Of a stretch of 54,732 bases of DNA, positions 20,375 through 54,072 are shown piece after piece. How positions within the stretch are numbered: position 1 is the stretch's first letter; every line of letters starts with the position of its first letter. Source of the DNA: a virus; IMG/VR virus record IMGVR_UViG_3300025450_000037, positions 1 to 54,732 of that record; one strand, given 5' to 3'. Both the position numbers and the translations under genes were made by a program. The notes beneath the pieces were generated by a model. That model ran no database searches and was not told the DNA's origin. It saw nothing but the letters and a program-made list of their open reading frames with translations.

Positions 20375-20596
20375 CTATTCTGTAGCTGCCACTTCTTCCC
20401 ACTTATACGTATTTACTCTACGCCATTTTCCATAAAGATTTGGTGTTGGAGATCCTATGTATTGTTGACCTGTTTCCATATCAATCAAAAGCCATTTTTC
20501 AGGGCATTTTGTGTGTATAGTTAAATCAATGGCCTCATCATATTCTTCTGCTGTTCCGCCATTTGCTAAGTCTCTCAAATTACTCGACCATATCAC
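20375..20596 (-). CDS. Small conserved-looking protein, unknown function
   Basis: 73 residues. Its ATG overlaps the end of the preceding oxygenase gene by 17 bases, so it is the last gene of the oxygenase transcription unit. It contains CPEKWLLIDMETGQQYIG and GKWRRVN. A short protein reading like a small OB or SH3-like barrel, but no function can be assigned. Confidence 0.65.
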   Translation of the reverse strand: MIWSSNLRDLANGGTAEEYDEAIDLTIHTKCPEKWLLIDMETGQQYIGSPTPNLYGKWRRVNTYKWEEVAATE

Positions 20597-21422: not shown

Positions 21423-21443
21423 TCATACCCCCGATATAACTAA

Positions 21444-21452
21444 ATTATATCA
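21444..21452 (-). promoter_or_regulatory. Extended -10 promoter before oxygenase 6
   Basis: TGATATAAT on the minus strand, 22 bases before ATG 21422. A GGGGGT Shine-Dalgarno-like tract lies between them. No -35 is apparent. Confidence 0.6.
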
Positions 21453-21467
21453 TAAATTTATTATAGA

Positions 21468-22124
21468 TTAAATTTTCCAAGCAGATACTGTAGACATGTA
21501 TCTATCACCGCTTATAATAGGCTTTACTTCGTGTATAAAGGGCGTTTGAGAAGGAAACATTATCATACTACCTTTCTTTGGCTTAATCGTTATATTGTGG
21601 CCTGGAAAGCTTATTTCTCCCCCCTCATAATTTTCATTAAGGTAGCAAACCAAAGAAAATGCCAAATCTTTATTGCCATCATAACCATCAGCATGAGGAC
21701 CCATATTTGCGCCTTCTTGCCATTTTTTAACAGGAATATTGTCTGTCTCTAATCTATATTCATCTTTATTAATTTTATGACCGTCCATATATCTTGAATA
21801 ACACATTTCAAAGGCCATTTCTAAGCTATTGTAAATATATAGGATTTTTTGATCAGTTTTTTCATCCCCACAACCCCATTTAGACTCATCTTTATTAATG
21901 TTTTTGGTTGCACCATAAATTAAATCATTATTATTACTTGCTGTCCAAACATTCCATGGAGATATGGCTTTATGAGACATTTGATTAGAGTCTATATTAT
22001 TAATAAATTGAACTAACTCATCAGGGTAACTAATAACATTATCCCAATACCAGATGTCTGGATGCAAAACATCTAGGTCAAACATTATATATTGTTCTTT
22101 ACCGCCTAAAAATTTTTGCTTCAT
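21468..22124 (-). CDS. 2OG-Fe(II) oxygenase 5 (prolyl-hydroxylase-like)
   Basis: 218 residues, the shortest of the block. Triad His144-Ala-Asp146 and His198 with Arg208 for 2OG; core strand GGEISFPGHNI. ATG overlaps the previous stop by 4 bases (ATGA). An alternative start at residue 14 (MFDLDVLHPD) is possible. All key residues are present, so the enzyme should be active. It acts in the host cytoplasm since no signal peptide is seen. Confidence 0.88.
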   Translation of the reverse strand: MKQKFLGGKEQYIMFDLDVLHPDIWYWDNVISYPDELVQFINNIDSNQMSHKAISPWNVWTASNNNDLIYGATKNINKDESKWGCGDEKTDQKILYIYNSLEMAFEMCYSRYMDGHKINKDEYRLETDNIPVKKWQEGANMGPHADGYDGNKDLAFSLVCYLNENYEGGEISFPGHNITIKPKKGSMIMFPSQTPFIHEVKPIISGDRYMSTVSAWKI

Positions 22125-22861
22125 ATCAAATCTTTCTCTGAAATTTTATTTCCATCTGGTGTCAATCTTTTTCCTTCTTGACGTATTCCTGACCATTCTA
22201 CTGCTTGATCTGCTTGCATCGCTCTTACCTCAGCAAGCTCTTTTGCCCACGCATCCCTAGTTTCTTGAGGATAATCTGATTCCTCACGATCATCAAAAAA
22301 AGAACCTATAGTGTATCTGTTTGATTTTTTAACAACCTTAACCTCATGCATGTTTTTATGACCACCATGAAAAGCTGCCAACATGCCTGTTTTTGGTAAA
22401 AACTCAAGGTTATGTTCAGAAAAAGATAGTTCTCCTCCTTCAAAATCATCATTTAAATATAAGAACGCTGCATAACGACTTCTTGTAAATGCTCCCATAA
22501 CACCATCATTATTGCTGTTATCTGAGTGAAGCGGAGCAAATGCGCCTGGCTCCCATTTTTGTGAATGAAAACTTATTTTTGAAAGCTGTGGTTCTGGAAT
22601 ATTAGCTACTTCTGCAACCGCATCTCTAAATCTTTTATACAAGCTAGAAAACCAATTATTTGGCAAACCAAACTCAGCAAGTATTGGATCATTGTCTTCT
22701 GGATAACCAGAGGAATATGATTCATAAAATGAAATTGGCTTCCAAAAATCTGGCCTTATTTCATTTAATCTATTTAAAAGAGCAATTGTTTTTTCAGCTT
22801 CTTCTTTTGTTATAAAATCTTCAATCAACAGCAAATCATCTAAAACAAAATTTTTATTCAT
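22121..22861 (-). CDS. 2OG-Fe(II) oxygenase 4 (prolyl-hydroxylase-like)
   Basis: 246 residues. Triad His112-Ser-Asp114 and His172, 2OG ligand Arg182; core strand GGELSFSEHNL. The ATG lies within the last 8 bases of the upstream gene, i.e. tight translational coupling. The C-terminal ~55 residues are polar and helical and not part of the catalytic fold. Substrate unknown. Confidence 0.88.
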   Translation of the reverse strand: MNKNFVLDDLLLIEDFITKEEAEKTIALLNRLNEIRPDFWKPISFYESYSSGYPEDNDPILAEFGLPNNWFSSLYKRFRDAVAEVANIPEPQLSKISFHSQKWEPGAFAPLHSDNSNNDGVMGAFTRSRYAAFLYLNDDFEGGELSFSEHNLEFLPKTGMLAAFHGGHKNMHEVKVVKKSNRYTIGSFFDDREESDYPQETRDAWAKELAEVRAMQADQAVEWSGIRQEGKRLTPDGNKISEKDLI

Positions 22862-23714
22862 TTGTCTGAGTTATACCTAACTTTTCTGCCCTAATTTTTT
22901 GTGCTTCAGCAAAAGTAATTTTTGTTCCGTTACTTAAATAAATCATATTTTCATCATCTTCTTTTTCAATTCTTTCCCATTCCATCTTAGACCATTTATA
23001 AGCACCAATTGTTCTTTGCTTTTCTAGCCATTCTTCTGATCCTGGGTAATTTGTCATAACAAAATTTCTAACAAAGTACTTGTTTCCATTAGAAATTCTT
23101 TTAACTCCATGATAATAAGGATCTGTAGAAGGAAATACAACTAAATCACCAGCTTTTGGTTTATGATTAATAATATTGTTATCAATATAAAATTCTAAAT
23201 CCCCACCATCATAATCGTCATTTATATAAAATGTCATTGTTGTGTGAAATTTATCTCCAGGCATGTCTCTTTGAGAAATGATATAATCTGTATGATATTG
23301 CATTGTCATATTATTTTTTAAATCATCAATTTCATCAAAATATTTACAATAAGAATTTCCGCTAAAATGTGCGTCTTCTGGAAATTTTAAACCTGTATGA
23401 TTAGTATAATGAGATGCTGCTTTTTCGTAAGCTGCAATCAATTCGTCTTGTAAGGATTTTTCATCATCAAACATTTCTCCTTGTTCAACATTATTTAAAT
23501 CTTCTCCCCATTTTATTTGAGTATAAGTTCCAAATTGAGCCCACTTTGTCCAAGGTTTTAAAAAATATTTTCCCTCAGAAGCTGATTCTGATTTAGACAT
23601 AGTTTCATAAGCTTTTTGAGGATTAGAAAGCATATTTTTATAAACAATTACATTTGGATAAATTTCTTCAAACTCTAAATCTTTAAAATCATCTGTAAAC
23701 TTAATATTATTCAT
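22854..23714 (-). CDS. 2OG-Fe(II) oxygenase 3 (Lys in the 2OG pocket)
   Basis: 286 residues from ATG 23714, chosen because AAGGAGA lies just upstream; a longer frame upstream would run through the previous gene. Triad His141-Thr-Asp143 and His202. The residue ten positions after the distal His is Lys212 instead of Arg, the arrangement known from collagen prolyl 4-hydroxylases. Core strand GGDLEFYIDN. A C-terminal ~60-residue helical tail ends in a LSNGTKITFAEAQKIRAEK segment. Confidence 0.87.
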   Translation of the reverse strand: MNNIKFTDDFKDLEFEEIYPNVIVYKNMLSNPQKAYETMSKSESASEGKYFLKPWTKWAQFGTYTQIKWGEDLNNVEQGEMFDDEKSLQDELIAAYEKAASHYTNHTGLKFPEDAHFSGNSYCKYFDEIDDLKNNMTMQYHTDYIISQRDMPGDKFHTTMTFYINDDYDGGDLEFYIDNNIINHKPKAGDLVVFPSTDPYYHGVKRISNGNKYFVRNFVMTNYPGSEEWLEKQRTIGAYKWSKMEWERIEKEDDENMIYLSNGTKITFAEAQKIRAEKLGITQTNE

Positions 23715-24456
23715 TATTCTCCTTATTTTCAAAAAGCTTTTTATATTCTGGATTATCGAATCCACCAATAAAACCTGCAGGTGGTTGTTTTTCACCTGTA
23801 TGCTCCATTATTGTCCAAAAAAATGGAGAAGTAAATCTATTACCCGATTTTATTGGTCTTACTCCATGGGCATAATATTTGTCTCCAGGAAAGAAGTACG
23901 CCGCCCTTGGCTTTGGTTTAAACTCTATTCCATGTTGGGGAAAATAAAGTTCTCCACCCACATAATCGTCATTAAAATAAAATAGGCCAGCTATATCATA
24001 CCAGGGAAAATCATTTGGTCTGCCACGTTCTTCTCCTACATGGAACTCTTTGTCTGCGTGAGGCTCTTGTCGTGCTCCAACAGGCCATCTAACAATTGCT
24101 GGTCCAGTGGCTTGAACATTTACATTAAAAAATTTGTCAACTTCAATTTTTAAACGATCAATTAAAGAATAGATAAGATTTAATATTGATGGATCTGATG
24201 CCATTAAAGAATTATATGTGCAAACACGGTCTTCCCAAACTGTTGCATCATATAAAACTAAACCATCTTGGTCAACATGTGTTTCTGTTTTATCCCAAAT
24301 TTTATTGTTTAAAGCAAATCTCATCAAGCTTTCTTGTTCTTTTTCCGTAATAAAATTTTGTAACTCAACAATATTTTCAATTGAATCTCCAAAAAATCCA
24401 GACGGGGTTATTGATTTTGGCAAATCATTTTTATTCCAATTATTAGCTAATTCCAT
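23707..24456 (-). CDS. 2OG-Fe(II) oxygenase 2 (prolyl-hydroxylase-like)
   Basis: 249 residues. Triad His133-Ala-Asp135 and His197, with Arg207 for 2OG; core strand GGELYFPQHGI, then a short C-terminal tail. Start ATG has an AAGAAGAAG purine tract and a promoter at 24481. The stop overlaps the next ATG by 8 bases. All catalytic residues intact. Confidence 0.88.
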   Translation of the reverse strand: MELANNWNKNDLPKSITPSGFFGDSIENIVELQNFITEKEQESLMRFALNNKIWDKTETHVDQDGLVLYDATVWEDRVCTYNSLMASDPSILNLIYSLIDRLKIEVDKFFNVNVQATGPAIVRWPVGARQEPHADKEFHVGEERGRPNDFPWYDIAGLFYFNDDYVGGELYFPQHGIEFKPKPRAAYFFPGDKYYAHGVRPIKSGNRFTSPFFWTIMEHTGEKQPPAGFIGGFDNPEYKKLFENKENNE

Positions 24457-24480
24457 TGCTTCTTCTTTCTATATAAAATA

Positions 24481-24489
24481 ATTATATCA
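24481..24489 (-). promoter_or_regulatory. Extended -10 promoter before oxygenase 2
   Basis: TGATATAAT on the minus strand, 25 bases before ATG 24456. It splits the block into separately startable units. Confidence 0.58.
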
Positions 24490-24495
24490 TAGATA

Positions 24496-25188
24496 CTAGT
24501 TAGTTACGCTTAGCCTTATTGCTTTAACCTGATGCTCACCAAGCTTTTTGCCTTTATGATCAACCCCATCACGGTAAAAATTTGTCCATTTTCCATTTCT
24601 ATTAATTTCATATATTGTATTACCATATTCATTCATATCTACTGATTGAGGCTTTTTTTGATCTATTGGTAAAAGATCTATTTCAGAACCCTGAAGTTCT
24701 GATAAATCAATTGGTAGTATTGCAATAATTGGAGTATTTGCTTTTATTGTTATCTCAACATTTGGCCTAGTTATTATCCATGCACATGGCAAATCTTCAT
24801 TAAAAAAAGAAGTTGACATAATTGTAGAAAAAGGAGTAATACCATCTCTTGGATAGTTTGGTACGGGCATAGATAAAATACTAACATTTTTTTCTGTTTC
24901 AAAACTTATACCAGTATTAAAACTAATAGTGGCATTAGCTCTTCCAGTTGAAACATATTTTTCTCCAGACATAATTTTTACATGCTCTGGTGAAGAATCA
25001 TTTATTCCATCCCAAATAAAAGATATGTCTTCTGGAAAAGATATGCCCCACCCCAACTGATTTGTTAAGCCGATTGGAAAACAGTGATAGGCGTGTGAAT
25101 TCCAAGTATTATCCATCCATTCTCTTTTTATTGATAGTGGAGATAAATTTCCATAGCCTTCTCTTTTAAAGGCCTTTATTTTGTGCAT
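24496..25188 (-). CDS. DUF6065-like protein within the oxygenase block
   Basis: Not an oxygenase: no HxD...H. About 230 residues from ATG 25188, which overlaps the preceding gene by 23 bases; no clear ribosome binding site precedes it, so the start is uncertain. The order CFPIGLTNQLGWGISFP, then FNTGISFETEKNVSILSMP, DGITPF and CAWIITRPNVEITIKANTP follows the pattern I know as DUF6065, an all-beta family found in phages and bacteria, sometimes near 2OG oxygenases. Role unknown; a partner or substrate-presenting factor for the oxygenases is conceivable. Confidence 0.7.
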   Translation of the reverse strand: MHKIKAFKREGYGNLSPLSIKREWMDNTWNSHAYHCFPIGLTNQLGWGISFPEDISFIWDGINDSSPEHVKIMSGEKYVSTGRANATISFNTGISFETEKNVSILSMPVPNYPRDGITPFSTIMSTSFFNEDLPCAWIITRPNVEITIKANTPIIAILPIDLSELQGSEIDLLPIDQKKPQSVDMNEYGNTIYEINRNGKWTNFYRDGVDHKGKKLGEHQVKAIRLSVTN

Positions 25189-25846
25189 CTCTTGCGACCC
25201 ACTTTTCACGCATCTGCATAAACTCATCATTATGCGCATGATCATTATAATCAAGCATTGTAACAATAGAGTATTTTGTTCCTTCAGAAACTGGAAGGGC
25301 AACATGTGAAAATAGGTATGTTGATGGGAATATATAAAGATCTCCTGCTTTTGGTTGAATATCAATATTAAGTTTTGGGAATCTTAATCCACCGCCAACA
25401 TAACCATCATTTGGATACCCAACCAATGAAACTGTTGCGCTATACGAAAATCCATGGTCTGCGTGTTCTTGGAAGTGTTGTCCAGGACCATATTTAACAA
25501 AATTCATTACTTCCCAATAATCCATCTTTGAATTATACATTGCGCAATAATCATTAACAGCATCAATTTGTGCTAAGTACGCATCTTTCCAGATGTCCTG
25601 CAAAGTTTGAAAATCTGGATTTTGTAGCATTGATTGATCTTTAATTTCGCCAATTTTAAAATCTACACAATCTCTATATTCTGGGCGAGATTCCATGTAG
25701 CCAACAGTGGCTCCAGACCATTTAAAATCAGAATTATTGTTTGCAATTAAGTTTTCTACACGTCCTATTAAATCAACTTCTTTTTTAAATACATCTTTAT
25801 AAACCCAAATTCCTGGGAAAAGCATTTCTTTAGATGAATAACTCAT
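25166..25846 (-). CDS. 2OG-Fe(II) oxygenase 1 (Lys in the 2OG pocket)
   Basis: 226 residues, first gene of the block, with its own promoter 26 bases upstream. Triad His128-Ala-Asp130 and His181; Lys191 replaces the usual Arg at +10, as in collagen prolyl 4-hydroxylase. Core strand GGGLRFPKLNI. It immediately follows the transcription unit of the PPGFFA-repeat protein. A very close fold relative of prolyl 4-hydroxylases by these residues. Confidence 0.88.
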   Translation of the reverse strand: MSYSSKEMLFPGIWVYKDVFKKEVDLIGRVENLIANNNSDFKWSGATVGYMESRPEYRDCVDFKIGEIKDQSMLQNPDFQTLQDIWKDAYLAQIDAVNDYCAMYNSKMDYWEVMNFVKYGPGQHFQEHADHGFSYSATVSLVGYPNDGYVGGGLRFPKLNIDIQPKAGDLYIFPSTYLFSHVALPVSEGTKYSIVTMLDYNDHAHNDEFMQMREKWVARDAQNKGL

Positions 25847-40611: not shown

Positions 40612-42546
40612 TCAATTTTTACCAATATCTACAATTTCACATTCCCCAGATACGCAAGCTAGCGCCTGGGTTCCCGTTGTTGTATCTTCTAGCTCATACA
40701 AAGACAATGCTGACCAATTAATATTTACTGGCATTTTTGCAACCATATCGTCATAAGCAGCCTTATCAACTTCTTGATATGGGGCTTGAACATAAGTATG
40801 TTCTGAATATGGTAAGAATGAAATTCCTGAGCATTCATCAAAATGTTTATAAACCCATGCACCAACTTCCATCCATTCATCTTCTTTTACTGAAACTGTA
40901 ATAGAAGGTTTATGCTCACACCAATGACGTTGATATGTTAACCATACTTCCAGTTGTTGAATAGCAGTTAGCTTATCTCTAGTGATTGCATGCTTTGGTG
41001 CCTTTACTGGAAATGAGAATACAGTTGTATCATTTGGCTTCATTACATCATCTTCTGATGGAATACCTGAATCTTTTAGGAACTGGGTTATAGGGTCTTT
41101 CTTGTCCCCACGAACTGTACGAATATAATAATCTGAATGCCAAGCATGCATTCCTGAAGACACCCCGACCAATTGGGAAACTGTGCCAGAAGGCTTTACG
41201 CAAGTAATTGCTGCTGAAGCGGGAATCCCAATTTTCTCTGCTTCTTCAATATTTGTTGCAAGAGCATACTCACGAAGTCTACCTAGGACATCTCCAAGCT
41301 TTGGCAAACCTTCCTGTCCAGAAAAGAACTTATGGCCAAACTGTCCTGTAAGTGAAACTCCTAGTAGACGCTCTTCTTCTGTGTTGTCTTTCCAAATCTT
41401 ACGGATGTACTTAAAGTCTGTAAGTGTTGATTGCCATGTTCCAAGAATTGTTGCAAGGCGGACCTTATTAGCAACATCCTCAACTGTATCTTTTTCACGA
41501 AGTACGACTTCTGAAAGGTTGCAAAACTGATAAGGACGTAGGATAATTTCTGAGCAAGGGTTAGTTCCATAGTGAATATCTGCACTACGTCTTCCATACT
41601 TTGCTGCTTGGGCTTGGGCTGCTGCCACATTGTAGATACCTCTTTCGCCCGACTTTGAATCATATAGTGATTTCCATTCTGAAATAAACTGTGCCATCTC
41701 TGGCTTACGTGAATATGCAACAGAGTTATTTGCTAGTGCACGTTGAGCATTTGATTCCCACCAATTACCAGCTTTAGCTGCTGCCATTTCAATATCGTTA
41801 ATATTTGAAAGAGATATAAGTGCTGAACGACGTACTCCGCCAACAACTACAACTTCTCCAATCTTACACATAATGTCGTGACATTCAATTGGCTTAAGTT
41901 GACGGCCAAGTGCTCCCTTAAATACTTGAATTGTAAAATCAAAAAGATTAACTAATGGTTGAGGACCTGATGATCTTCCACCCATTGTTTTAAGACGTGC
42001 ACCTGAAGGACGAACTTTGCTAACATCAATCTGTGGAATCTGTCCTGCCCACAAAAGACCTAAGAGTTCACGATATGCTTTTGCCCAACCTTCTTTAGAA
42101 TCTCCAACAATAACTACTGTACTTGACTTCTCAAGAGTTTCTGGAAGAGCGGGAAGTTTATTTATGTACTTATACTCAACAGAAAATCCAACACCAGTTC
42201 CACACATAAGAATATACATTGCTTCATCAAATGAACGAGCATTATCTACTGGTATAAATGAACAGTTATATCCTGCAACATTTTCTCTTTCTAGTGCGGG
42301 TCCTGCAGTCATAACAGAACGCATTGATGGCATAACGTTACGGTTAAATACAGCATCACGCAATTCTGCAACAAGCTTTGCATCTGGCTTATAGTTGTTA
42401 TTTTTTTCAAGATGCTCAACCATAAAGTTAAAGTAGCGGTCTACAGTTTCACCCCATGTTTCACGACGATTTTCATCTTCAAGCCATCTCGCATATCGAG
42501 ATAAAGCAATAAAGTTTTCATATGGGTTTTCAATTGAATTAGACAT
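40612..42546 (-). CDS. nrdJ: Ribonucleoside-triphosphate reductase, adenosylcobalamin-dependent (class II)
   Basis: 644 residues, full length for the monomeric class II enzyme (L. leichmannii type). It reduces ribonucleotides to deoxyribonucleotides using the B12 radical. Visible landmarks: NVAGYNCSFIPVDNARSF, GTGVGFSVE, RPSGARLKTMGGRSSGPQPL, NPCSEIILRPYQFCNLSE (substrate-cysteine region), KPSGTVSQLVGVSSGMH, and a C-terminal ACVSGECEI pair of redox cysteines. It requires cobalamin from the host, so the host should possess or import B12. It supplies dNTPs for phage DNA synthesis and lies, unusually, upstream of the fibre operon on the same strand. Confidence 0.95.
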   Translation of the reverse strand: MSNSIENPYENFIALSRYARWLEDENRRETWGETVDRYFNFMVEHLEKNNNYKPDAKLVAELRDAVFNRNVMPSMRSVMTAGPALERENVAGYNCSFIPVDNARSFDEAMYILMCGTGVGFSVEYKYINKLPALPETLEKSSTVVIVGDSKEGWAKAYRELLGLLWAGQIPQIDVSKVRPSGARLKTMGGRSSGPQPLVNLFDFTIQVFKGALGRQLKPIECHDIMCKIGEVVVVGGVRRSALISLSNINDIEMAAAKAGNWWESNAQRALANNSVAYSRKPEMAQFISEWKSLYDSKSGERGIYNVAAAQAQAAKYGRRSADIHYGTNPCSEIILRPYQFCNLSEVVLREKDTVEDVANKVRLATILGTWQSTLTDFKYIRKIWKDNTEEERLLGVSLTGQFGHKFFSGQEGLPKLGDVLGRLREYALATNIEEAEKIGIPASAAITCVKPSGTVSQLVGVSSGMHAWHSDYYIRTVRGDKKDPITQFLKDSGIPSEDDVMKPNDTTVFSFPVKAPKHAITRDKLTAIQQLEVWLTYQRHWCEHKPSITVSVKEDEWMEVGAWVYKHFDECSGISFLPYSEHTYVQAPYQEVDKAAYDDMVAKMPVNINWSALSLYELEDTTTGTQALACVSGECEIVDIGKN

Positions 42547-47316: not shown

Positions 47317-47556
47317 ATGACTACATATAATGAATACTATAATGAAATCCGTACCGATATTGCTAAAGAGTTTGGCTTAGAGTTTGGTGGATTCGCTCCA
47401 TCTCCCCGCCCTGCTTTATCAGTAAATCAGGCTCTATATCTTAACGCTAAGTATCAGAGCGACCCTCTTGCTCTTGAGCCTAACCAAAAGGCGGTTGAAA
47501 TCGCCCGCCGTTATGGTAGCCTAGTCAAGATGTGGCGTAACTCACAGACACGCTAA
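47317..47556 (+). CDS. Small hypothetical protein
   Basis: 79 residues. The stop TAA falls exactly in the loop of a GACACGC/GCGTGTC hairpin. Sequence (EFGLEFGGFAPSPRPALSVNQAL, then NQKAVEIARRYGSLVKMWRNSQTR) has a helical, basic C-terminus; possible DNA/RNA contact. First gene after a strong promoter. Confidence 0.7.
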   Translation: MTTYNEYYNEIRTDIAKEFGLEFGGFAPSPRPALSVNQALYLNAKYQSDPLALEPNQKAVEIARRYGSLVKMWRNSQTR

Positions 47557-47565
47557 CGGCGTGTC
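47547..47565. repeat. GACACGC/GCGTGTC hairpin, copy 1
   Basis: 7-bp perfect stem around TAACG, overlapping the stop codon of the preceding gene. Related copies at 50455, 51955 and 53344, plus half copies at 49041, 53310 and 53393. Confidence 0.7.
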
Positions 47566-47568
47566 GTG

Positions 47569-47597
47569 TTGATTTTGTCAGTGCTATCTGATAGACT
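47569..47597 (+). promoter_or_regulatory. Early promoter P1 (TTGATT plus TGTCAG element)
   Basis: TTGATT 47569-47574, 17-base spacer, TAGACT 47592-47597 with extended TGA. The spacer contains TGTCAG (47576-47581), 10 bases before the -10, as in eight other promoters here. Confidence 0.75.
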
Positions 47598-47693
47598 ACC
47601 GTCATAACAATTAAATAAAGATAAATCCCGTGAGCCCTACACAGTAGGCAAATAATCGGGCAAGGAAAAGAACTACTAAAGAAAGGTGACAAA

Positions 47694-47840
47694 ATGTCAT
47701 ACTCATTTGATAACACTAACACAGATCGTTGGTCTGAATTGGCTGATGGATATCAATCAATGCTTGATGAATTAAATAATGAAGAATTAGAATCAGTATT
47801 TGTACCAGTTGATTCGTTTGATGAATTGGAGATTTTATAA
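47694..47840 (+). CDS. Tiny acidic protein
   Basis: 48 residues: MSYSFDNTNTDRWSELADGYQ... rich in Asp/Glu. GAAAGGTGA precedes the ATG. The ~95-base leader contains an imperfect CCCG..CGGG hairpin. Function unknown. Confidence 0.6.
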   Translation: MSYSFDNTNTDRWSELADGYQSMLDELNNEELESVFVPVDSFDELEIL

Positions 47841-47957
47841 ATGATTATCCTAACCTATATTGTAAGAGGGCTAATGCTACTTGCACTCCCGCCCCTATGT
47901 ATGCTAATGTATGCTATTGTAAAAGACGTAAAGACTTGGGGGCAAAATGAAAACTAA
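47841..47957 (+). CDS. Tiny single-pass membrane protein
   Basis: 38 residues; ATG follows the previous stop with no gap. Residues 2-28 are hydrophobic (IILTYIVRGLMLLALPPLC...). Overlaps the next gene by 11 bases. Confidence 0.6.
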   Translation: MIILTYIVRGLMLLALPPLCMLMYAIVKDVKTWGQNEN

Positions 47958-48108
47958 GATAATCGTATTAGGTATAGCGTTAGCACTTATGCCAAATATG
48001 GCACAGGCTAAATCTAATAGTCATAAGTGGCATTACACTATGACCTACCACCGCCCGACCCACGTTCGGTGTCCATATGCTGGGTGTCGCTCAGACCTTC
48101 AACCCTAA
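47947..48108 (+). CDS. Small secreted cysteine-containing peptide
   Basis: 53 residues. A textbook signal peptide (MKTKIIVLGIALALMPNMAQA, cleavage after AQA) followed by a ~32-residue basic/His-rich mature part with two Cys (RCPYAGCR). An exported phage peptide of this size is unusual. Ends at the TGTCAG element of promoter P2. Confidence 0.7.
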   Translation: MKTKIIVLGIALALMPNMAQAKSNSHKWHYTMTYHRPTHVRCPYAGCRSDLQP

Positions 48109-48112
48109 CAAA

Positions 48113-48134
48113 TGTCAGTGGTCTATGGTAGACT
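48113..48134 (+). promoter_or_regulatory. Early promoter P2
   Basis: TGTCAG 48113-48118, 10 bases, TAGACT 48129-48134 with TGG extension. Confidence 0.72.
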
Positions 48135-48168
48135 ACTACTAACAACAACAAGAAAAGGATAAAAAATA

Positions 48169-48333
48169 ATGACAACAGAAAATCGTACATATCAGGTAGG
48201 CGATCTTTTTACTACACAACGTAGCAAGGTAACAGGCACGATCAAGGAGATCGTAAATGTTAAGCCTAATCAGTCTCGTGTTAAGTTGTCAGTAGACGGC
48301 AAGGATCGCTGGACTACTGTAACAATCAAGTAA
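48169..48333 (+). CDS. Small beta-rich protein, paralogue A
   Basis: 54 residues containing TYQVGDLFTTQ and GKDRWTTVTIK. Shares TYQVGDLFTT with the next gene and aligns along its length; reads like a small barrel. Unknown role. Confidence 0.68.
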   Translation: MTTENRTYQVGDLFTTQRSKVTGTIKEIVNVKPNQSRVKLSVDGKDRWTTVTIK

Positions 48334-48419
48334 GTTTGGCAAATCGCCAAATATCCTGAGCAAGATATAAAAAGGCTCAACACAAAACCCAACAAAGAAA
48401 AAAAGAAAAGGAAAACTAA

Positions 48420-48590
48420 ATGTCACTCAACGGATATACATATCAAGTCGGAGATCTATTCACAACCTCAACAACAGGTGTAACAGGTCGCATTAACTCT
48501 TTCGCACCAATTAGCAAGACTGTAACTCGTGTTGGTCTTACTTTAGCAAATGGTCAAAAGCGTTTTGCAATGGTAAAAACAGCAAAGTAA
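48420..48590 (+). CDS. Small beta-rich protein, paralogue B
   Basis: 56 residues (GYTYQVGDLFTTSTTGVTGRI...), clear paralogue of the gene at 48169. Leader ends AAAAGAAAAGGAAAACTAA before ATG. Confidence 0.68.
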   Translation: MSLNGYTYQVGDLFTTSTTGVTGRINSFAPISKTVTRVGLTLANGQKRFAMVKTAK

Positions 48591-48593
48591 TGA

Positions 48594-48641
48594 TATAATA
48601 AATCTTGGCGGGACTGCCCACTAATACTGACACTCCCGCCA
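48594..48641 (+). promoter_or_regulatory. -10 element and TGGCGGGA/TCCCGCCA hairpin leader
   Basis: TGATATAAT (TATAAT 48594-48599) just after the previous stop, followed by an 8-bp stem (48606-48613 with 48634-48641) in the leader of the next gene. Confidence 0.5.
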
Positions 48642-48669
48642 TCTACTAATAAAAAGGATAGAAAATAAA

Positions 48670-48843
48670 ATGATGACAAGAAAAGACTATGTTGCAACTG
48701 CTGAAATTTTAAACTCTTATGGTTCAGAAATGAAATTAGAAGTGTTAGAAGATTTAGTAAATGATTTCATCGAAATGTTTGCAGCAGATAACGAGCGTTT
48801 TGATTCTGACAGGTTCTGGGACGAATGTTTCAAAAATCTATAA
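48670..48843 (+). CDS. Small acidic helical protein
   Basis: 57 residues: MMTRKDYVATAEILNSYGSE..., acidic, likely two helices. Similar short proteins with DYVATAEIL starts are common in actinobacteriophages. Function unknown. Shares its last A with the next ATG. Confidence 0.65.
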   Translation: MMTRKDYVATAEILNSYGSEMKLEVLEDLVNDFIEMFAADNERFDSDRFWDECFKNL

Positions 48844-48956
48844 TGGAAAAAGTTAAACGCATACAAGAGCTTAGGCGTAGCAATGCTGCTACGCCTCTGC
48901 AAAATAAAAAGAAATATAATCGCAAAACAAAATATAAAAACAAATTAGTTGAATAA
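48843..48956 (+). CDS. Tiny basic peptide, paralogue 1
   Basis: 37 residues, very Lys/Arg-rich (RIQELRRSNAATPLQNKKKY...). Same family as 50298. The stop lies in the loop of the terminator that follows. Could bind nucleic acid. Confidence 0.68.
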   Translation: MEKVKRIQELRRSNAATPLQNKKKYNRKTKYKNKLVE

Positions 48957-48971
48957 TCAACTAATTTTTGT
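48942..48971 (+). terminator. Rho-independent terminator
   Basis: 11-bp perfect stem AAATTAGTTGA/TCAACTAATTT, 4-base loop, U-run directly after. Overlaps the last codons of the basic peptide gene. Confidence 0.8.
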
Positions 48972-48978
48972 CGATGCG

Positions 48979-49011
48979 TTATCCACAGGTTTATCCACAG
49001 ATTGTGGATTA
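48979..49011. other. DnaA-box cluster, possible origin
   Basis: Two perfect direct DnaA boxes TTATCCACA (48979-48987, 48991-48999) and one inverted box with one mismatch (TGTGGATTA, 49003-49011), 12-base spacing, next to AT-rich DNA. A fourth perfect inverted box lies at 51984-51992. Confidence 0.55.
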
Positions 49012-49051
49012 TAATTAACCTTAAGTTCACCTAAAATATACGGCGTGTCGC

Positions 49052-49080
49052 TTGATTTTTCCGTTTAAGTGTGATAAACT
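49052..49080 (+). promoter_or_regulatory. TTGATTTTTCC promoter
   Basis: TTGATT 49052-49057, 17 bases, TAAACT 49075-49080 with extended TGA; sequence TTGATTTTTCC is identical to the promoter at 47232. A ~155-base structured leader follows (hairpin GTCTCAA/TTGAGAC near 49138-49155). Confidence 0.7.
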
Positions 49081-49237
49081 TCCAGTTATAAAATTAAATA
49101 ATGCTATAAAGCGTGTGGCTTATATCACACCGCTAAGCGTCTCAAAGGTTGAGACTACTAGCCAGTATACTTGATAGTAGCGAAAAAGTATGTTAAACTA
49201 GCGATAGTTAAACAGTTAAAAAAGAAAGGTGGTCAAA

Positions 49238-49426
49238 ATGACTACACTAACAAATATAGGCTTAGCCTTAAATATCCCTGCTACCTTAGAAAATCGTATT
49301 ATTCACGATTTTAACAATGGGGGATGTACCTCATCTTATGGCTTATCTACGCCTCAGCGTATAGCCTTATTAAAAATCCTCTTGGGTGGTAATGCCCCTA
49401 AGTGTGAGTGTATCCACTGCCTCTAA
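49238..49426 (+). CDS. Small cysteine-containing protein
   Basis: 62 residues from ATG 49238 (GAAAGGTGG upstream). C-terminus KCECIHCL has three Cys; the middle reads GLSTPQRIALLKILLGG. Possible metal site; function unknown. Confidence 0.65.
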   Translation: MTTLTNIGLALNIPATLENRIIHDFNNGGCTSSYGLSTPQRIALLKILLGGNAPKCECIHCL

Positions 49427-49448
49427 TGTCAGTGGTCAATGCTATAAT
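49427..49448 (+). promoter_or_regulatory. Early promoter P3
   Basis: TGTCAG 49427-49432, 10 bases, TATAAT 49443-49448 with TGC extension. Starts right at the previous stop codon. Confidence 0.75.
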
Positions 49449-49482
49449 TACCAATTAACAAGAAAGAAAGAAGGTAGCAAAT

Positions 49483-49707
49483 ATGCTAATCTCAGAAGCC
49501 TTAGAAGGCAAATATGTAAAGTCCTCAAAAGGACAAGGCATAATCCAATATGCAGATTTCCGAAAGGATATGCACCACTCTACACCAGAGGGTTATCTTG
49601 CTTATGCTTGCAAGGTTCGCCCTACGTATAACCCCGAAGTGCATAAGTTTATTCCAGAAGATTTCTGGACAACAATTTATGTCGGATTGGATAGTGAATT
49701 ACTATGA
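49483..49707 (+). CDS. Small hypothetical protein
   Basis: 74 residues (MLISEALEGKYVKSSKGQGIIQ...). Reads as a small mixed fold. AAAGAAAGAAGG leader. ATGA overlap with the next gene. Confidence 0.68.
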   Translation: MLISEALEGKYVKSSKGQGIIQYADFRKDMHHSTPEGYLAYACKVRPTYNPEVHKFIPEDFWTTIYVGLDSELL

Positions 49708-49910
49708 CAATTAAAATTGGTGGGCTAGGGCAGGAGATTTCTGCCTATTGCCCAGTATGCTCACAAAAGATGACCCATATGTGTATTGCTACACTTGGAA
49801 CGGGTCGCACAATTCGCTATGCTTGGGAATGTCAGCCTTGCGAATTATCTCTTAAATCCGATAAAGATGGCAATGCTCATCTTCTAACAGAAATGGCTTA
49901 CTATGTCTGA
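49704..49910 (+). CDS. Zinc-ribbon protein
   Basis: 68 residues with CPVC (Cys16/19) and CQPC (Cys43-type) pairs, a classic two-knuckle zinc ribbon. Possibly a nucleic acid or transcription factor-like protein. Confidence 0.72.
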   Translation: MTIKIGGLGQEISAYCPVCSQKMTHMCIATLGTGRTIRYAWECQPCELSLKSDKDGNAHLLTEMAYYV

Positions 49911-50019
49911 TGCAATATTTATATGCGATGATTGCGATACTCTTGCAACAGTGTCAGTGGGGTCTGATACAATAACTATAAATCCCTGCAAATGTGTAAC
50001 ACTAGATTGGAATAACTAA
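49903..50019 (+). CDS. Tiny Cys-rich protein
   Basis: 38 residues with CDDC and CKC. Promoter P4 lies inside its coding sequence, so the 3' half doubles as regulatory DNA. Overlaps both neighbours. Confidence 0.6.
   Translation: MSDAIFICDDCDTLATVSVGSDTITINPCKCVTLDWNN
49952..49973 (+). promoter_or_regulatory. Early promoter P4 (intragenic)
   Basis: TGTCAG 49952-49957, 10 bases, TACAAT 49968-49973 with TGA extension. Confidence 0.65.
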
Positions 50020-50225
50020 TGTATAAAATTACAACAACCTATGACGAAAATCCCGTCCCACACTCTATTCACTCTTATGCTGATGCACTTGATGCGTTTG
50101 ACTCGTTTGGTCGTTGCACCGATTGGGGATTTGCAGATGAATATGCAACCTACAATTTAACTTTACCTGATGGAAAAATGTACACAAAGATTTTTTATCG
50201 TAGCGGAAAAGTTGGTGGAAAGTAA
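50019..50225 (+). CDS. Small hypothetical protein
   Basis: 68 residues (MYKITTTYDENPVPHSIHSY...). No motif recognised; a compact alpha/beta look. Shares single-base overlaps (TAATG) with both neighbours. Confidence 0.66.
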   Translation: MYKITTTYDENPVPHSIHSYADALDAFDSFGRCTDWGFADEYATYNLTLPDGKMYTKIFYRSGKVGGK

Positions 50226-50305
50226 TGGTAACAACAATTCACCTTGGTGGAATAGAATCAGAATGTGAGAAGTGTCGTGAAATTGCGGGAGAAAATAATG
50301 AATAA
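50225..50305 (+). CDS. Tiny CxxC peptide
   Basis: 26 residues with one CEKC pair. Very short; real only if the coupled TAATG starts are used. Overlaps the next gene by 8 bases. Confidence 0.45.
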   Translation: MVTTIHLGGIESECEKCREIAGENNE

Positions 50306-50399
50306 AGTAAATCGTGTTCAAGAGTTGCGGAGATCAAATGCTGCAACTCCAATTCGTAACAAGAAAAAATATACACGCAAAATAAAATATAAAAAATAA
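50298..50399 (+). CDS. Tiny basic peptide, paralogue 2
   Basis: 33 residues: MNKVNRVQELRRSNAATPIR... nearly the same core as 48843. Both copies sit at the end of an operon and just before an intergenic control region. Confidence 0.66.
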   Translation: MNKVNRVQELRRSNAATPIRNKKKYTRKIKYKK

Positions 50400-50401
50400 A
50401 T

Positions 50402-50428
50402 TTGACAATTAGCTTATTTTGGGTCGAC
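50402..50428 (+). promoter_or_regulatory. TTGACA-N13-GGGTCGAC module, copy 1
   Basis: TTGACA 50402-50407 and GGGTCGAC 50421-50428, separated by 13 bases. Copies 2 and 3 at 51932 and 53321 keep the same spacing. Confidence 0.6.
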
Positions 50429-50433
50429 CCGCC

Positions 50434-50443
50434 TGACTGGTCA
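50434..50443. promoter_or_regulatory. TGACTGGTCA operator-like site
   Basis: TGACnnGTCA-type palindrome in the intergenic gap before promoter P5; related sites at 47175, 51997 and 53296. Confidence 0.5.
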
Positions 50444-50454
50444 TTGTCAATACG

Positions 50455-50474
50455 ACACGCCGTTTACGGCGTGT
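50455..50474. terminator. ACACGCCGT/ACGGCGTGT hairpin
   Basis: 9-bp perfect stem with a TT loop, followed by GATTTT; a member of the GACACGC hairpin family. Probably terminates the upstream operon. Confidence 0.65.
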
Positions 50475-50514
50475 GATTTTAATCTCATAAATACTGGCGG
50501 GTACAAGTGGATAA

Positions 50515-50536
50515 TGTCAGTGGGTTCTGGTATACT
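50515..50536 (+). promoter_or_regulatory. Early promoter P5
   Basis: TGTCAG 50515-50520, 10 bases, TATACT 50531-50536 with TGG extension; GAAAGGGGC leader before ATG 50568. Confidence 0.75.
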
Positions 50537-50567
50537 TCCAACTATCAAGAAAAGAAAGGGGCATTAA

Positions 50568-50795
50568 ATGTCTACTATTGCCACATATTGCAAAGATTGC
50601 AATAAGCGTTTATCTGATATTTCAGTATATGACGCTCCCTATACTTCCGATTCTACTTGCTGGGAGTGTATCTTCAAGTCCTGCGATTTTTGCTATGGTC
50701 AAGGAATTACTGGCTGGGTATCTCCAGATGGTGATTTTGATTTTGATTATTGCGAATGCAACCCACTATGCCTAACACTAGAGGAGGTCAAATAA
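50568..50795 (+). CDS. Cysteine-rich zinc-binding protein
   Basis: 75 residues with CKDC, CWEC, CDFCYGQG and CEC. The CDFCYGQGITGW pattern resembles DnaJ-type zinc modules. Likely binds two zinc ions. ATG overlap to next. Confidence 0.7.
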   Translation: MSTIATYCKDCNKRLSDISVYDAPYTSDSTCWECIFKSCDFCYGQGITGWVSPDGDFDFDYCECNPLCLTLEEVK

Positions 50796-50986
50796 TGACT
50801 AATGAAACTATTTTTGAAGTCGCTTGCCTATACTATGAAGTATGCGGTACAAGCGAAGTATTCTACTCTGAAGAAGAGTATGATATTTATGGGGATGATT
50901 ATGTATGCCCTGAATGTCAAGACTCTGTTGCAGAGTTTTACTCTGATTCCTTCCCGCTTTATCTTGAATATGATGAGGGGGAGTAA
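50795..50986 (+). CDS. Small acidic zinc-ribbon-like protein
   Basis: 63 residues from ATG 50795 (GAGGTC upstream). CPEC and two further Cys; very acidic C-terminus ending YLEYDEGE. Confidence 0.65.
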   Translation: MTNETIFEVACLYYEVCGTSEVFYSEEEYDIYGDDYVCPECQDSVAEFYSDSFPLYLEYDEGE

Positions 50987-51120
50987 TGTCTGATAAGTCT
51001 GCTCAAGATCTGTTTAATGAAATGGATACCCTCTGGGATAATTTCAAGAAAGCCACTTGGCAAATGTCAGTGGTACCTGCTACAATAACATCCTCAACCC
51101 AACCAAAGAATGGAAACTAA
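50986..51120 (+). CDS. Tiny protein overlapping promoter P6
   Basis: 44 residues (MSDKSAQDLFNEMDTLWDNF...). The last 20 codons are the P6 promoter sequence, so the C-terminus is constrained by it. Confidence 0.55.
   Translation: MSDKSAQDLFNEMDTLWDNFKKATWQMSVVPATITSSTQPKNGN
51065..51086 (+). promoter_or_regulatory. Early promoter P6 (intragenic)
   Basis: TGTCAG 51065-51070, 10 bases, TACAAT 51081-51086 with TGC extension. Confidence 0.65.
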
Positions 51121-51122
51121 CA

Positions 51123-51596
51123 ATGAACACATCCCTAACCCGTGGCGAAGCCAAAGATACAATTGACTTCGCAATTGAACAATTTATCAACGAGATTGAA
51201 GTCTCTGACGGTATGCTATTAACGATTACCTATGCCGTAAATAATGACCTGCAGATTCGTGATTACTTCCTTGGTCTCCCGTCCGATTATGGTATGCAGG
51301 TATGCGTTGATTTTGTCAATTATCTTTCACGAGTAACTAATGCACGAGAAGGATATGCATATGACACAATTTCTGCGATGTATCATATTGAACAAGGCAA
51401 CACAGACTTGGCTAAGTCTCTGCTAGAAATTGCAGAAAAAAATAATCCTGATTATAATCTGATGAAACTTGCAAAGAGAATTCTTTCAGCAGGTTGGCCA
51501 GGTTCTGCATTAACTAGAATGCGTAATGAATTGCATTCTTCAGTTGTGGATACTATCACCGAAGAGCCAAATATTTTAATTGGGGAGGTGGCGTAA
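51123..51596 (+). CDS. DUF4192-like protein
   Basis: 157 residues. The C-terminal ...QGNTDLAKSLLEIAEKNNPDYNLMKLAKRIL...GWPGSAL stretch matches the DUF4192 pattern, a family found almost only in Actinobacteria and their phages. Helical. This is one of the best host-lineage hints in the window. Confidence 0.75.
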   Translation: MNTSLTRGEAKDTIDFAIEQFINEIEVSDGMLLTITYAVNNDLQIRDYFLGLPSDYGMQVCVDFVNYLSRVTNAREGYAYDTISAMYHIEQGNTDLAKSLLEIAEKNNPDYNLMKLAKRILSAGWPGSALTRMRNELHSSVVDTITEEPNILIGEVA

Positions 51597-51811
51597 TGGC
51601 TAAGCATCCACCAGTCGGGAATGCCAAATGGCATTCCGTGTTTGCAGATGACAATTGCAAAGTTTGGCAAGATGGCAATGATGATATTTTTTTCAAGGTT
51701 GCGATCAAGGGTCAACGTGTAAAATATTTTTACAATGAAACTGCACACAGTGACGTTGCACGTTACTGTTCAGACAATTTAGGAATTCGTTATTGGTCCG
51801 TGTTAGATTAA
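51596..51811 (+). CDS. Small hypothetical protein
   Basis: 71 residues (MAKHPPVGNAKWHSVFADDN...), beta-rich start; no family recognised. TAATG overlap with the previous gene. Confidence 0.65.
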   Translation: MAKHPPVGNAKWHSVFADDNCKVWQDGNDDIFFKVAIKGQRVKYFYNETAHSDVARYCSDNLGIRYWSVLD

Positions 51812-51828
51812 TTTAAATGGGGTGGGTA

Positions 51829-51921
51829 ATGACTGCAATGGCTTATATTTATGTATACGGATTAATATGGGCCATTGCTGCATTCTTAATTAAAGCTTGG
51901 GAATTATTAAAAGATAATTAG
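51829..51921 (+). CDS. Tiny membrane protein
   Basis: 30 residues, single hydrophobic segment (AYIYVYGLIWAIAAFLIKAW). GGGGTGGGT leader. Confidence 0.55.
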   Translation: MTAMAYIYVYGLIWAIAAFLIKAWELLKDN

Positions 51922-51926
51922 CGTGT

Positions 51927-51950
51927 TGCATTTGACAAATGCATTTTTTT
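51927..51950 (+). terminator. Rho-independent terminator
   Basis: TGCATTT/AAATGCA 7-bp stem with GAC loop and a seven-T run; ends the DUF4192 operon. Confidence 0.75.
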
Positions 51951-52006
51951 GGGTCGACACGCTCGGGCGTGTCGTACACAGGTTGTGGATAAAGTTTGAC
52001 TAGTCA
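51932..52006. promoter_or_regulatory. Intergenic control cluster
   Basis: In order: TTGACA-N13-GGGTCGAC copy 2 (51932-51958), a CGACACGC/GCGTGTCG 8-bp hairpin (51955-51974), a perfect inverted DnaA box (51984-51992) and the palindrome TTGACTAGTCAA (core TGACTAGTCA 51997-52006). The 220-base gap carries no gene. Confidence 0.6.
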
Positions 52007-52089
52007 ATTACGAGGTGATGTTTATCACATTCAAAAAATCGGACATTACGGACAAATGTTTGTTTATCTTGCTTTACGGAATAGACAAG

Positions 52090-52111
52090 TGTCAGTGCCA
52101 TCTGCTAGAAT
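52090..52111 (+). promoter_or_regulatory. Early promoter P7
   Basis: TGTCAG 52090-52095, 10 bases, TAGAAT 52106-52111 with TGC extension; AGAAAGAAGGAAAA leader before ATG 52142. Confidence 0.75.
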
Positions 52112-52141
52112 AGGCATACATTAACAAGAAAGAAGGAAAAT

Positions 52142-53179
52142 ATGACTAACCCTATGTCACAAGTTCACCGCTCAGAAGTTGAGTCTGGTGAAGTATCTCT
52201 CGCTGTATCTACCCGCACTAACCCTGCTTGGCATAGTTTTGCTAACAAGGTCTTCACAAAAGATGAAGAAGTAACAACCGCACAAATGCTAGAGGGTGCT
52301 AAGTTGTCTAATTGGAATGTTCAATTAGAGTCTGTGTCTGATTTGCTTGCAGATAATTATACTACTGTTAGCGAGAATTTTCTCGTTACACGTGATAACC
52401 CTTATACAGCAGGACAAAAAGATGTTCTCTCAGTTGTAGGCTCACGCTATAAGACAGTTCAGAATGAAGATTTATTCTCATTCGCAGATAACTTACACGA
52501 TGGCAATTCAGATGTCTATTGGGAAAGTGCAGGTTCTCTCAAGAATGGTCGTGTTGTATTCGGCACAATGTCAATTCCCCGCACTATGGTTCTTGACCCT
52601 AATGGTGCTAACGATCAGACTAATCTTTATCTCGTAGTCTACACTTCACACGATGGTTCTGTTGCTGTTCAGTCTGCAATTACCCCTGTTCGTGTTATGT
52701 GTCAGAATACACTTAATTTCGCTATGCGTAAGGCTAAGCAATCTTTCAAGATTCGCCATACTCAGACAGTAGATGGAAAGATCGCTGCTGCTCGTGAGGC
52801 TTTAGGCTTGACATTCTCCTATATGGACGAATTCGAAAAGCAAGCACAAGAGTTGTTCTCTCGTGAAGTTACCAATGCAAAGTTTTCTGAGATCATTAAC
52901 AAATTATATGTTAAGCCAGAGGCAGACGTTAAGGGTGCTGTAAAGAAGTGGGAAAACAAGGTTCTGCTCATAGATGAGTTGTACCATAACTCTCCTACTA
53001 ATGCTAATATCAAGGGTACAGCGTGGGGTGTTGTAAATGCACTTACCGAACGCCTTGATTATTATCGCACAGCCCGCAAGGGTGGCGATTCGCTAATGGC
53101 AGGTGCAAGTGGATTTGACCCTGTTGTTACAGCAGAAAAAAATAAAATTGTTAAGCAGGTTCTTGCACTTACCGCTTAA
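52142..53179 (+). CDS. DUF932 / TIGR03299-type phage protein
   Basis: 345 residues. SVVGSRYKTVQNEDLFSFADNL and the ITPVRVMCQNTLNFAMRKAK block are hallmarks of DUF932 (LGT_TIGR03299), common in phages and plasmids; biochemical role unknown, often linked to DNA replication or recombination regions. High codon bias towards C-ending codons suggests strong expression. Confidence 0.88.
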   Translation: MTNPMSQVHRSEVESGEVSLAVSTRTNPAWHSFANKVFTKDEEVTTAQMLEGAKLSNWNVQLESVSDLLADNYTTVSENFLVTRDNPYTAGQKDVLSVVGSRYKTVQNEDLFSFADNLHDGNSDVYWESAGSLKNGRVVFGTMSIPRTMVLDPNGANDQTNLYLVVYTSHDGSVAVQSAITPVRVMCQNTLNFAMRKAKQSFKIRHTQTVDGKIAAAREALGLTFSYMDEFEKQAQELFSREVTNAKFSEIINKLYVKPEADVKGAVKKWENKVLLIDELYHNSPTNANIKGTAWGVVNALTERLDYYRTARKGGDSLMAGASGFDPVVTAEKNKIVKQVLALTA

Positions 53180-53185
53180 TAAATC

Positions 53186-53207
53186 GTGAGGGGCGAAAGC
53201 CCCTCAC
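53186..53207 (+). terminator. Strong hairpin after the DUF932 gene
   Basis: Perfect 9-bp stem GTGAGGGGC/GCCCCTCAC with GAAA tetraloop, 6 bases before the tRNA. No U-run; it may separate the mRNA from the tRNA by processing. Confidence 0.65.
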
Positions 53208-53213
53208 CATCAC

Positions 53214-53287
53214 GGTCTGTTAGATTAATTGGTTAAATCGCTACCCTGTCACGGTAGAGATCACGGGTTCAAGTCCCGTACAGATCG
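53214..53287 (+). tRNA. tRNA-Asp (GUC)
   Basis: Acceptor stem GGTCTGT/ACAGATC (one G-T), D stem GATT/AATC, anticodon stem CTACC/GGTAG with loop CTGTCAC (anticodon GTC), T arm ACGGG-TTCAAGT-CCCGT, discriminator G. The 3' CCA is not encoded. Only tRNA seen in the window. Confidence 0.95.
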
Positions 53288-53295
53288 CAAAAGTT

Positions 53296-53363
53296 TGACT
53301 GATCATCACGGCGTGTCGGGTTGACAAAGCTGCAAAAATGGGTCGACACGCTCGGGCGTGTCG
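53296..53363. promoter_or_regulatory. Intergenic control cluster after tRNA
   Basis: TGACTGATCA operator-like site (53296-53305), half GGCGTGTCG (53310), TTGACA-N13-GGGTCGAC copy 3 (53321-53347) and CGACACGC/GCGTGTCG hairpin (53344-53363); a second half hairpin repeat follows at 53393. Confidence 0.55.
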
Positions 53364-53411
53364 GGTGTGATAATAAACACAGTTACGATATACGGCGTGT
53401 CGGATGGAAAA

Positions 53412-53433
53412 TGTCAGTGGGTTACGATATAAT
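53412..53433 (+). promoter_or_regulatory. Early promoter P8
   Basis: TGTCAG 53412-53417, 10 bases, TATAAT 53428-53433. Confidence 0.72.
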
Positions 53434-53457
53434 AATGCCCTGATGAAAGGAAAACTA

Positions 53458-54072
53458 ATGAACTGGTTTAAATGGGATTACGTTTGCCCATATTGCGATG
53501 CACATATTGAAATGACTATTAAACCTAATGGTCATCCACATAGCGAGATTTGCCCAAAATGCTTTGAGCGTTTAACACTAATGTCAGTGGTAGATGTTAC
53601 AATTAGTCCTATAACTACTAAGAAAGAAGATGAAATGGAAACTCTTACTAATCCCGCCGATATTTACAACCCAAATGCTTTGGTTACTTACAAGAAGATT
53701 GTAAATGGTCAGGCTGAGTATGTAACTATTAAAACAGTAGAACTTGATTGGGATATGAACCGAGCAAGACAAGATGCAAAGCAGGTTCTCAATGACTATG
53801 AGAAGGCAGTTGCACTTGAGGATATTATCAAGGAAAACTATCTTGAGTCTGGGGATCAGGGAACACTCCTCAAGATTGCAGAACTCTTTAATATTGCATT
53901 AACTAAAGATATTGAGTTTGTTGCAACTATCGAAATTGCAGGAACAGTTACAGTTGATATGACAGATGAAGATGCTTTGCAAACTTTGCTAGAAAATAGC
54001 ATAAATGTGTCTTCCTATGATGGTGATTTAGATGTGTCTGATTATGTTCTTATTAACTATGAGGAGAGATAA
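53458..54072 (+). CDS. Zinc-ribbon protein fused to a larger domain
   Basis: 204 residues from ATG 53458 (AAAGGAAAA upstream; the earlier ATGs lie within or directly on promoter P8). N-terminal zinc ribbon (CPYC and CPKC), then VDVTISPITTKKEDE, then a ~145-residue domain starting METLTNPADI. Promoter P9 and an in-frame ATG at 53635 suggest the second domain is also made alone. Confidence 0.7.
   Translation: MNWFKWDYVCPYCDAHIEMTIKPNGHPHSEICPKCFERLTLMSVVDVTISPITTKKEDEMETLTNPADIYNPNALVTYKKIVNGQAEYVTIKTVELDWDMNRARQDAKQVLNDYEKAVALEDIIKENYLESGDQGTLLKIAELFNIALTKDIEFVATIEIAGTVTVDMTDEDALQTLLENSINVSSYDGDLDVSDYVLINYEER
53582..53603 (+). promoter_or_regulatory. Early promoter P9 (intragenic)
   Basis: TGTCAG 53582-53587, 10 bases, TACAAT 53598-53603 with TGT extension; transcription would begin just before AAGAAAGAAGATGAA and ATG 53635. 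Confidence 0.65.
53635..54072 (+). CDS. Possible nested shorter product
   Basis: 145 residues starting METLTNPADIYNPNALVTYK, in frame with the longer gene and downstream of P9, with AAAGAAG as ribosome binding site. Its start is in the standard position relative to a TGTCAG promoter, so the fusion may be a lost stop codon. Confidence 0.5.
   Translation: METLTNPADIYNPNALVTYKKIVNGQAEYVTIKTVELDWDMNRARQDAKQVLNDYEKAVALEDIIKENYLESGDQGTLLKIAELFNIALTKDIEFVATIEIAGTVTVDMTDEDALQTLLENSINVSSYDGDLDVSDYVLINYEER

Follow-up and report, generated by a model that had tools for sequence, protein, structure and literature searches.

The question raised by the linear virus record IMGVR_UViG_3300025450_000037 of IMG/VR is which factor reads a series of nine closely similar sites, in each of which a TGTCAG box precedes a TAnnnT -10 element by exactly 10 nucleotides (nt). 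The whole record of 54,732 bases, hereafter the window, was analysed; end repeats were searched for and none was found. The nine sites had been proposed as early promoters from inspection of the letters (the original prediction), and all nine were recovered at their positions on the + strand, between 47576 and 53603. They are almost certainly promoters, and there is strong reason to assign them, together with the corresponding sites of related viruses, to the RecA-independent DNA-damage promoter type (RecA-NDp) of Actinobacteria, which depends on the activator PafBC. Taken as a whole, the data make it probable that RecA-NDp-type promoters are carried here by a low-GC actinophage and read by the PafBC and housekeeping RNA polymerase of its host.

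The pattern TGTCAG-N10-TAnnnT was found nine times; 100 shuffled versions of the window gave a mean of 0.66 (standard deviation 0.86, maximum 4). The comparison with shuffled sequence that the original prediction had called for thus upholds it, as none of the 100 shuffles reached nine sites. The rest of the window, outside 47.5-53.7 kb, holds no further site, and the - strand none. The hexamer TGTCAG by itself is not enriched in the window (24 copies versus 27.5 expected); what stands out is its constant distance of 10 nt from TAnnnT. Every site has the general form TGTCAGTG-N8-TAnnnT. The extended box had been described as usually aaTGTCAGTGG; TGTCAGTGG is indeed present in seven of the nine sites and TGTCAGTGC in the remaining two, but the preceding aa is found in just six. 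The frequent extension of the -10 element is borne out, with TG one base ahead of it in eight sites and CGA at 53412. Likewise, the box lies outside the place of a -35 element as proposed, but at -28 to -23 (taking the -10 element as -12 to -7) rather than at -22 to -27. That only the first site has a clear -35 element (TTGATT-N17, at 47576) holds broadly, weaker -35-like hexamers being present at 50508, 51057, 52082 and 53405. Eight of the nine sites lead to a start codon (ATG) 18-39 nt past the predicted transcription start, which gives them the look of real promoters; for promoter 1 the distance is 90 nt.

Relatives were sampled as 59 viral-contig loci found with the DUF932 protein encoded in the promoter block, some of them near-duplicates. 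TGTC[AG]GTG-N8-TAnnnT occurs in 54 of the 59, giving 330 sites, all on the DUF932 strand and none on the opposite strand, a directionality like that of PafBC promoters; a reversed control pattern had no match in the same 59 loci. When no motif was presupposed, TGTCAG at distance 10 ranked first among all hexamer and distance pairs before TAnnnT (425 occurrences; at most 54 on the other strand). The TGTCRG box gives about 490 distinct sites at distance 10 in relatives, other distances remaining at background except for echoes within the motif, since the secondary peaks at spacings 5 and 15 arise from its own TA/T letters. At positions left free by the search, about 298 distinct sites favour T at -15 (83%) and G at -14 (92%), have A at -9 in 95% of cases and show a pyrimidine followed by A around +1. 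Within 60 nt, 93% of the counted sites are followed by a start codon that has a ribosome-binding site (RBS), compared with 34% of random places. In about three quarters of the sites at most four of the six letters of TTGACA are present, the -35 element being weak or absent. The box varies between A and G at -24 among relatives, and in the promoter of the DUF932 gene itself TGTC[AG]G is conserved in most of them, with variable bases following and TGTCAC in three; both kinds of variant are also reported for Mycobacterium tuberculosis.

The sites are also confined within genomes. In whole records of 51-112 kb nearly all of them fall inside one block of about 10 kb, and a loosened pattern gives up to 16-17 sites per record. 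A 14-base form scanned over all viral contigs matched at least 120 loci, 74 of which hold two or more general-form sites; a control pattern of the same length matched 114 loci, with a single match in every listed one and two real sites in none of the 114. The distant DUF932 loci L312-L316 (54-55% identity) have no TGTCRGTG site and display TTGAC-type promoters instead; they perhaps represent phages of another host group.

The published mycobacterial RecA-NDp promoter reads tTGTCRgtg-8nt-TannnT, with gtg written as weakly conserved (PMC5656591), and the PafBC motif is given as TGTCGG-, TGTCAG- or TGTCAC-10N-TA-3N-T, in which directionality is essential and TGTCAC is the third variant, reported for Mycobacterium tuberculosis (PMC8151990). 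The promoter type is also present in other Actinobacteria (PMC8223512). When activated by single-stranded DNA (ssDNA), PafBC positions itself between the promoter and domain 4 of sigma-A, with PafB contacting the -26 motif and PafC gripping the sigma domain, and so substitutes for a -35 element (PMC11804915). The RecA-NDp assignment follows from joint agreement in the box and its position, the distance to the -10 element, the tolerance of A or G, the orientation and the mostly weak -35 element. The promoter type is already known. No report of a phage using a RecA-NDp promoter was found in sources lying mostly outside subscription journals; where papers name both PafBC and phages, their subject is the part of WYL proteins in defence, or phages come up only in passing.

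That a single recognition mechanism underlies the sites, as originally proposed, is well supported. No WYL protein, the class to which PafBC belongs, was found in the window or in 12 relatives, although these records may be incomplete; in 12 records no sigma-70 region 2 was found, and for region 4 just two weak fragments below the curated cut-off. With neither a phage WYL activator nor a convincing sigma factor found, it is simplest to assume that the sites are read by a factor of the host. The activator probably comes from there, and to judge by the promoter sequences there is a good chance that it is PafBC. The suggestion of a phage-specific sigma or activator contact therefore stands in part: an activator contact at a position other than -35 is well supported, but "phage-specific" is not, because motif, spacing and base tolerance equal those of host PafBC/RecA-NDp promoters and neither a WYL protein nor a convincing sigma factor was found in the relatives searched.

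Several points weigh against reading by host PafBC. About a quarter of the sites (120 of 472, against about 12 expected) have a good, normally spaced -35 element with five or six matching letters, about equally often in the TGG, TGC and ACC classes of bases after the box; some promoters may consequently work without an activator, and basal activity without PafBC is likely there. In addition, about 40% of TGTCRG-N10 sites continue without TG (ACC, TCC, CCC and others). The strict TATAAT form hit no actinobacterial genome in a genome scan, which is a weak test, and both the host's PafBC and its RecA-NDp promoters are predictions made from phage records.

Among the other readings, the best preserved is a phage-encoded activator of non-WYL type, maybe made first or injected, that binds TGTCRG at -26 in the manner of PafBC, its likeness to RecA-NDp resulting from convergence or capture of the box. 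Such a protein could hide among the small genes of the block, most of which have no known family, and these phages carry the box far more often than the regulon of a host would require; nevertheless, all six letters of the box, its 10-nt distance, the -10 element and the A/G tolerance match the host system, for which chance is an unlikely cause, and the failure to find a WYL protein in the records searched counts against it too. This explanation is accordingly rated as unlikely. Still less credit is due to TGTCAG as the operator of a phage repressor (for immunity or shut-off) placed at ordinary extended -10 promoters, an option raised in the original prediction that now appears very improbable. 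Many promoter-adjacent copies per genome do resemble the repressor sites of temperate actinophages, and the good -35 element at a quarter of the sites would suit it, but a repressor site needs no fixed phasing, whereas about 490 distinct sites all point the same way at exactly the same distance from the -10 element, with zero copies on the other strand and no -35 element at most of them. Finally, a sigma factor encoded by the phage and using an upstream element of its own can be dismissed almost entirely, for although a sigma-70 factor is known from two isolated phages of Planktophila that belong to a different family (PMC10202952), 12 records yielded no region 2 and only the two sub-cut-off fragments of region 4, and distance 10 is too short for a region 4 contact with a -35 element.

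A likeness to the stoperators of Cluster A phages was considered, though not in detail, and was set aside, orientation and spacing speaking against an operator.

Under the preferred reading, transcription by host PafBC and housekeeping polymerase, the extended -10 element would be bound by the host housekeeping RNA polymerase while the ssDNA-activated PafBC heterodimer would read TGTCRG at -28 to -23 and offer a docking place to sigma-A region 4 ("sigma adaptation"), so that no -35 element would be needed. Most genes of the block, which resembles a terminal repeat, would stand under one host activator already present in the cell, responding to ssDNA from entry, replication or damage. On entry the block would be transcribed from many separate promoters; its genes would be expressed in concert with no regulator of the phage involved, and they may be controlled by ssDNA or damage.

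The lineage of the phage bears on both host and timing. The best hits of the ribonucleotide reductase (67% identity), DUF932 protein (53%) and head protease (40%) are in Stanwilliamsviridae; the window represents part of the genome of a low-GC actinophage whose relatives include phages of Streptomyces. The ribonucleotide reductase gene (40612..42546, - strand), whose 67% identity is to Streptomyces phages, lies outside the block and serves as an actinophage lineage marker; records G019, G021, G029 and G030 are without the major capsid protein family and without a clear ribonucleotide reductase match, and may represent another phage lineage. WhiB, which is said to occur in actinobacteria exclusively and to mark actinophages (PMC10202952), is encoded in 11 of 12 relatives, which points to an actinobacterial host, and by none of the genes in the window fragment. 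With a GC content near 37%, the phage may have a low-GC host, for instance 'Ca. Nanopelagicales'. Both genome ends of Samisti12 contain the DUF932 gene, in a terminal repeat, and Streptomyces phages of this kind have terminal repeats of about 11 kb (PMC5764925). Judged by its DUF932 gene, the promoter block is the predicted counterpart of this terminal-repeat block; as such it is probably first to enter, and early expression of its genes would be likely by homology. That a freshwater-type actinophage family has wired its first-entering block to PafBC, its infection programme being switched or tuned by ssDNA and damage, is given slightly better than even chances.

Isolated DUF932 actinophages of Gordonia, Arthrobacter, Mycobacterium, Rhodococcus, Microbacterium and Streptomyces contain no clusters of the sites. 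Single TGTCGGTG-N8-TAnnnT matches were observed in Microbacterium phages MenE (L337, at 23095 and 28571) and Jayden (L338, at 33104), adjoining exonuclease or single-stranded DNA-binding protein (SSB)-region genes; they may be chance matches in high-GC DNA.

All nine promoters lie on the + strand. Promoter 1 (47576..47597, TGTCAGTGCTATCTGATAGACT) is composite with the upstream TTGATT-N17 and leads through a 90-nt leader to ATG 47694 (48 residues). It is followed by promoter 2 (48113..48134, TGTCAGTGGTCTATGGTAGACT; ATG 48169, leader 28 nt), promoter 3 (49427..49448, TGTCAGTGGTCAATGCTATAAT; ATG 49483, leader 28 nt), promoter 4 (49952..49973, TGTCAGTGGGGTCTGATACAAT; ATG 50019, leader 39 nt), promoter 5 (50515..50536, TGTCAGTGGGTTCTGGTATACT; ATG 50568, leader 25 nt) and promoter 6 (51065..51086, TGTCAGTGGTACCTGCTACAAT; ATG 51123, 157 residues, leader 30 nt). 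Promoter 7 (52090..52111, TGTCAGTGCCATCTGCTAGAAT), with the weak -35 element TAGACA-N18, serves the DUF932 gene (52142..53179, + strand; PF06067, phrog_1221) through a 24-nt leader, and the same promoter block accompanies this gene in its relatives. Promoter 8 (53412..53433, TGTCAGTGGGTTACGATATAAT), without the extended TG, precedes ATG 53458 (204 residues) by an 18-nt leader, and promoter 9 (53582..53603, TGTCAGTGGTAGATGTTACAAT) lies within the frame opened there, its next ATG at 53635 (145 residues, same frame, leader 25 nt) having its own RBS. The latter arrangement would give a shorter protein without the Cys-rich N-terminus. The two promoters are only 170 nt apart (53412-53635), and several relatives (L269, L274, L284 and L291) have retained a comparable pair.

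Hairpins occur shortly upstream of promoters 1 and 5. A repeated GGCGTGTCG/CGACACGCC element, mostly forming 8-bp hairpins, is found in intergenic positions and upstream of several promoters (47547-47565, 49036-49050, 50455-50474, 51950-51974, 53339-53363 and 53388-53402) and may represent terminators or a second regulatory element. The 25-mer TGGGTCGACACGCTCGGGCGTGTCG has two identical copies, each preceded by a TTTGACAA-like stretch. A tRNA-Asp (gtc) gene (53214-53288) comes immediately after the DUF932 gene, and a small gene is duplicated in 101-nt copies (48840-48940 and 50295-50395, 72% alike) covering a short basic open reading frame. Elsewhere, at 20580-25846, six adjacent minus-strand genes all match the 2-oxoglutarate (2OG)-Fe(II) oxygenase PHROG (phrog_61), a family expanded in tandem.

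PafBC is known as a bacterial activator of DNA repair, in a system studied mainly in mycobacteria. Dependence of phages on it would link phage infection directly to host damage sensing: infection could depend on ssDNA, ultraviolet light in surface water would affect the expression of viral genes, and mutants in pafBC would be expected to be resistant to these phages or to yield them slowly. The phage sites also form a collection of hundreds of naturally occurring candidate promoters for PafBC, including their sequence variants, and clustered TGTCRG-N10-TAnnnT is a possible metagenome marker for viruses of actinobacteria.

With the Streptomyces Stanwilliamsviridae (Samisti12, Karimac and Yaboi) the phage has in common a counterpart gene block containing DUF932, rows of small genes and short transcription units. 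In contrast, the terminal repeats of those phages carry TTGAC-N17/18-TAGACT-like promoters and their whole genomes hold no TGTCRGTG-N8-TAnnnT sites, which means that the two lineages have different types of promoter. With bacterial RecA-NDp/PafBC promoters, such as P1 of Mycobacterium recA, the phage sites share TGTCRG at -28 to -23, 10 nt before TAnnnT, as well as the single orientation, the mostly weak -35 element and the tolerated variants. They differ in occurring in phages, clustered at 2-16 per record before genes mostly of unknown function, and in a -10 element nearer to TATAAT, usually with an extended TG. The AfsR/SARP promoters of Streptomyces are alike in that an activator lies between sigma region 4 and the DNA of the promoter (PMC10936776). 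Their afs box, however, is a direct-repeat pair overlapping the -35 element, and the phage sites are without such repeats. In the middle promoters of phage T4, read through sigma appropriation by MotA and AsiA, an activator box likewise substitutes for the -35 element at a fixed distance to the -10 element. There the factors are phage-made and serve middle genes, whereas here the factor is probably the host's.

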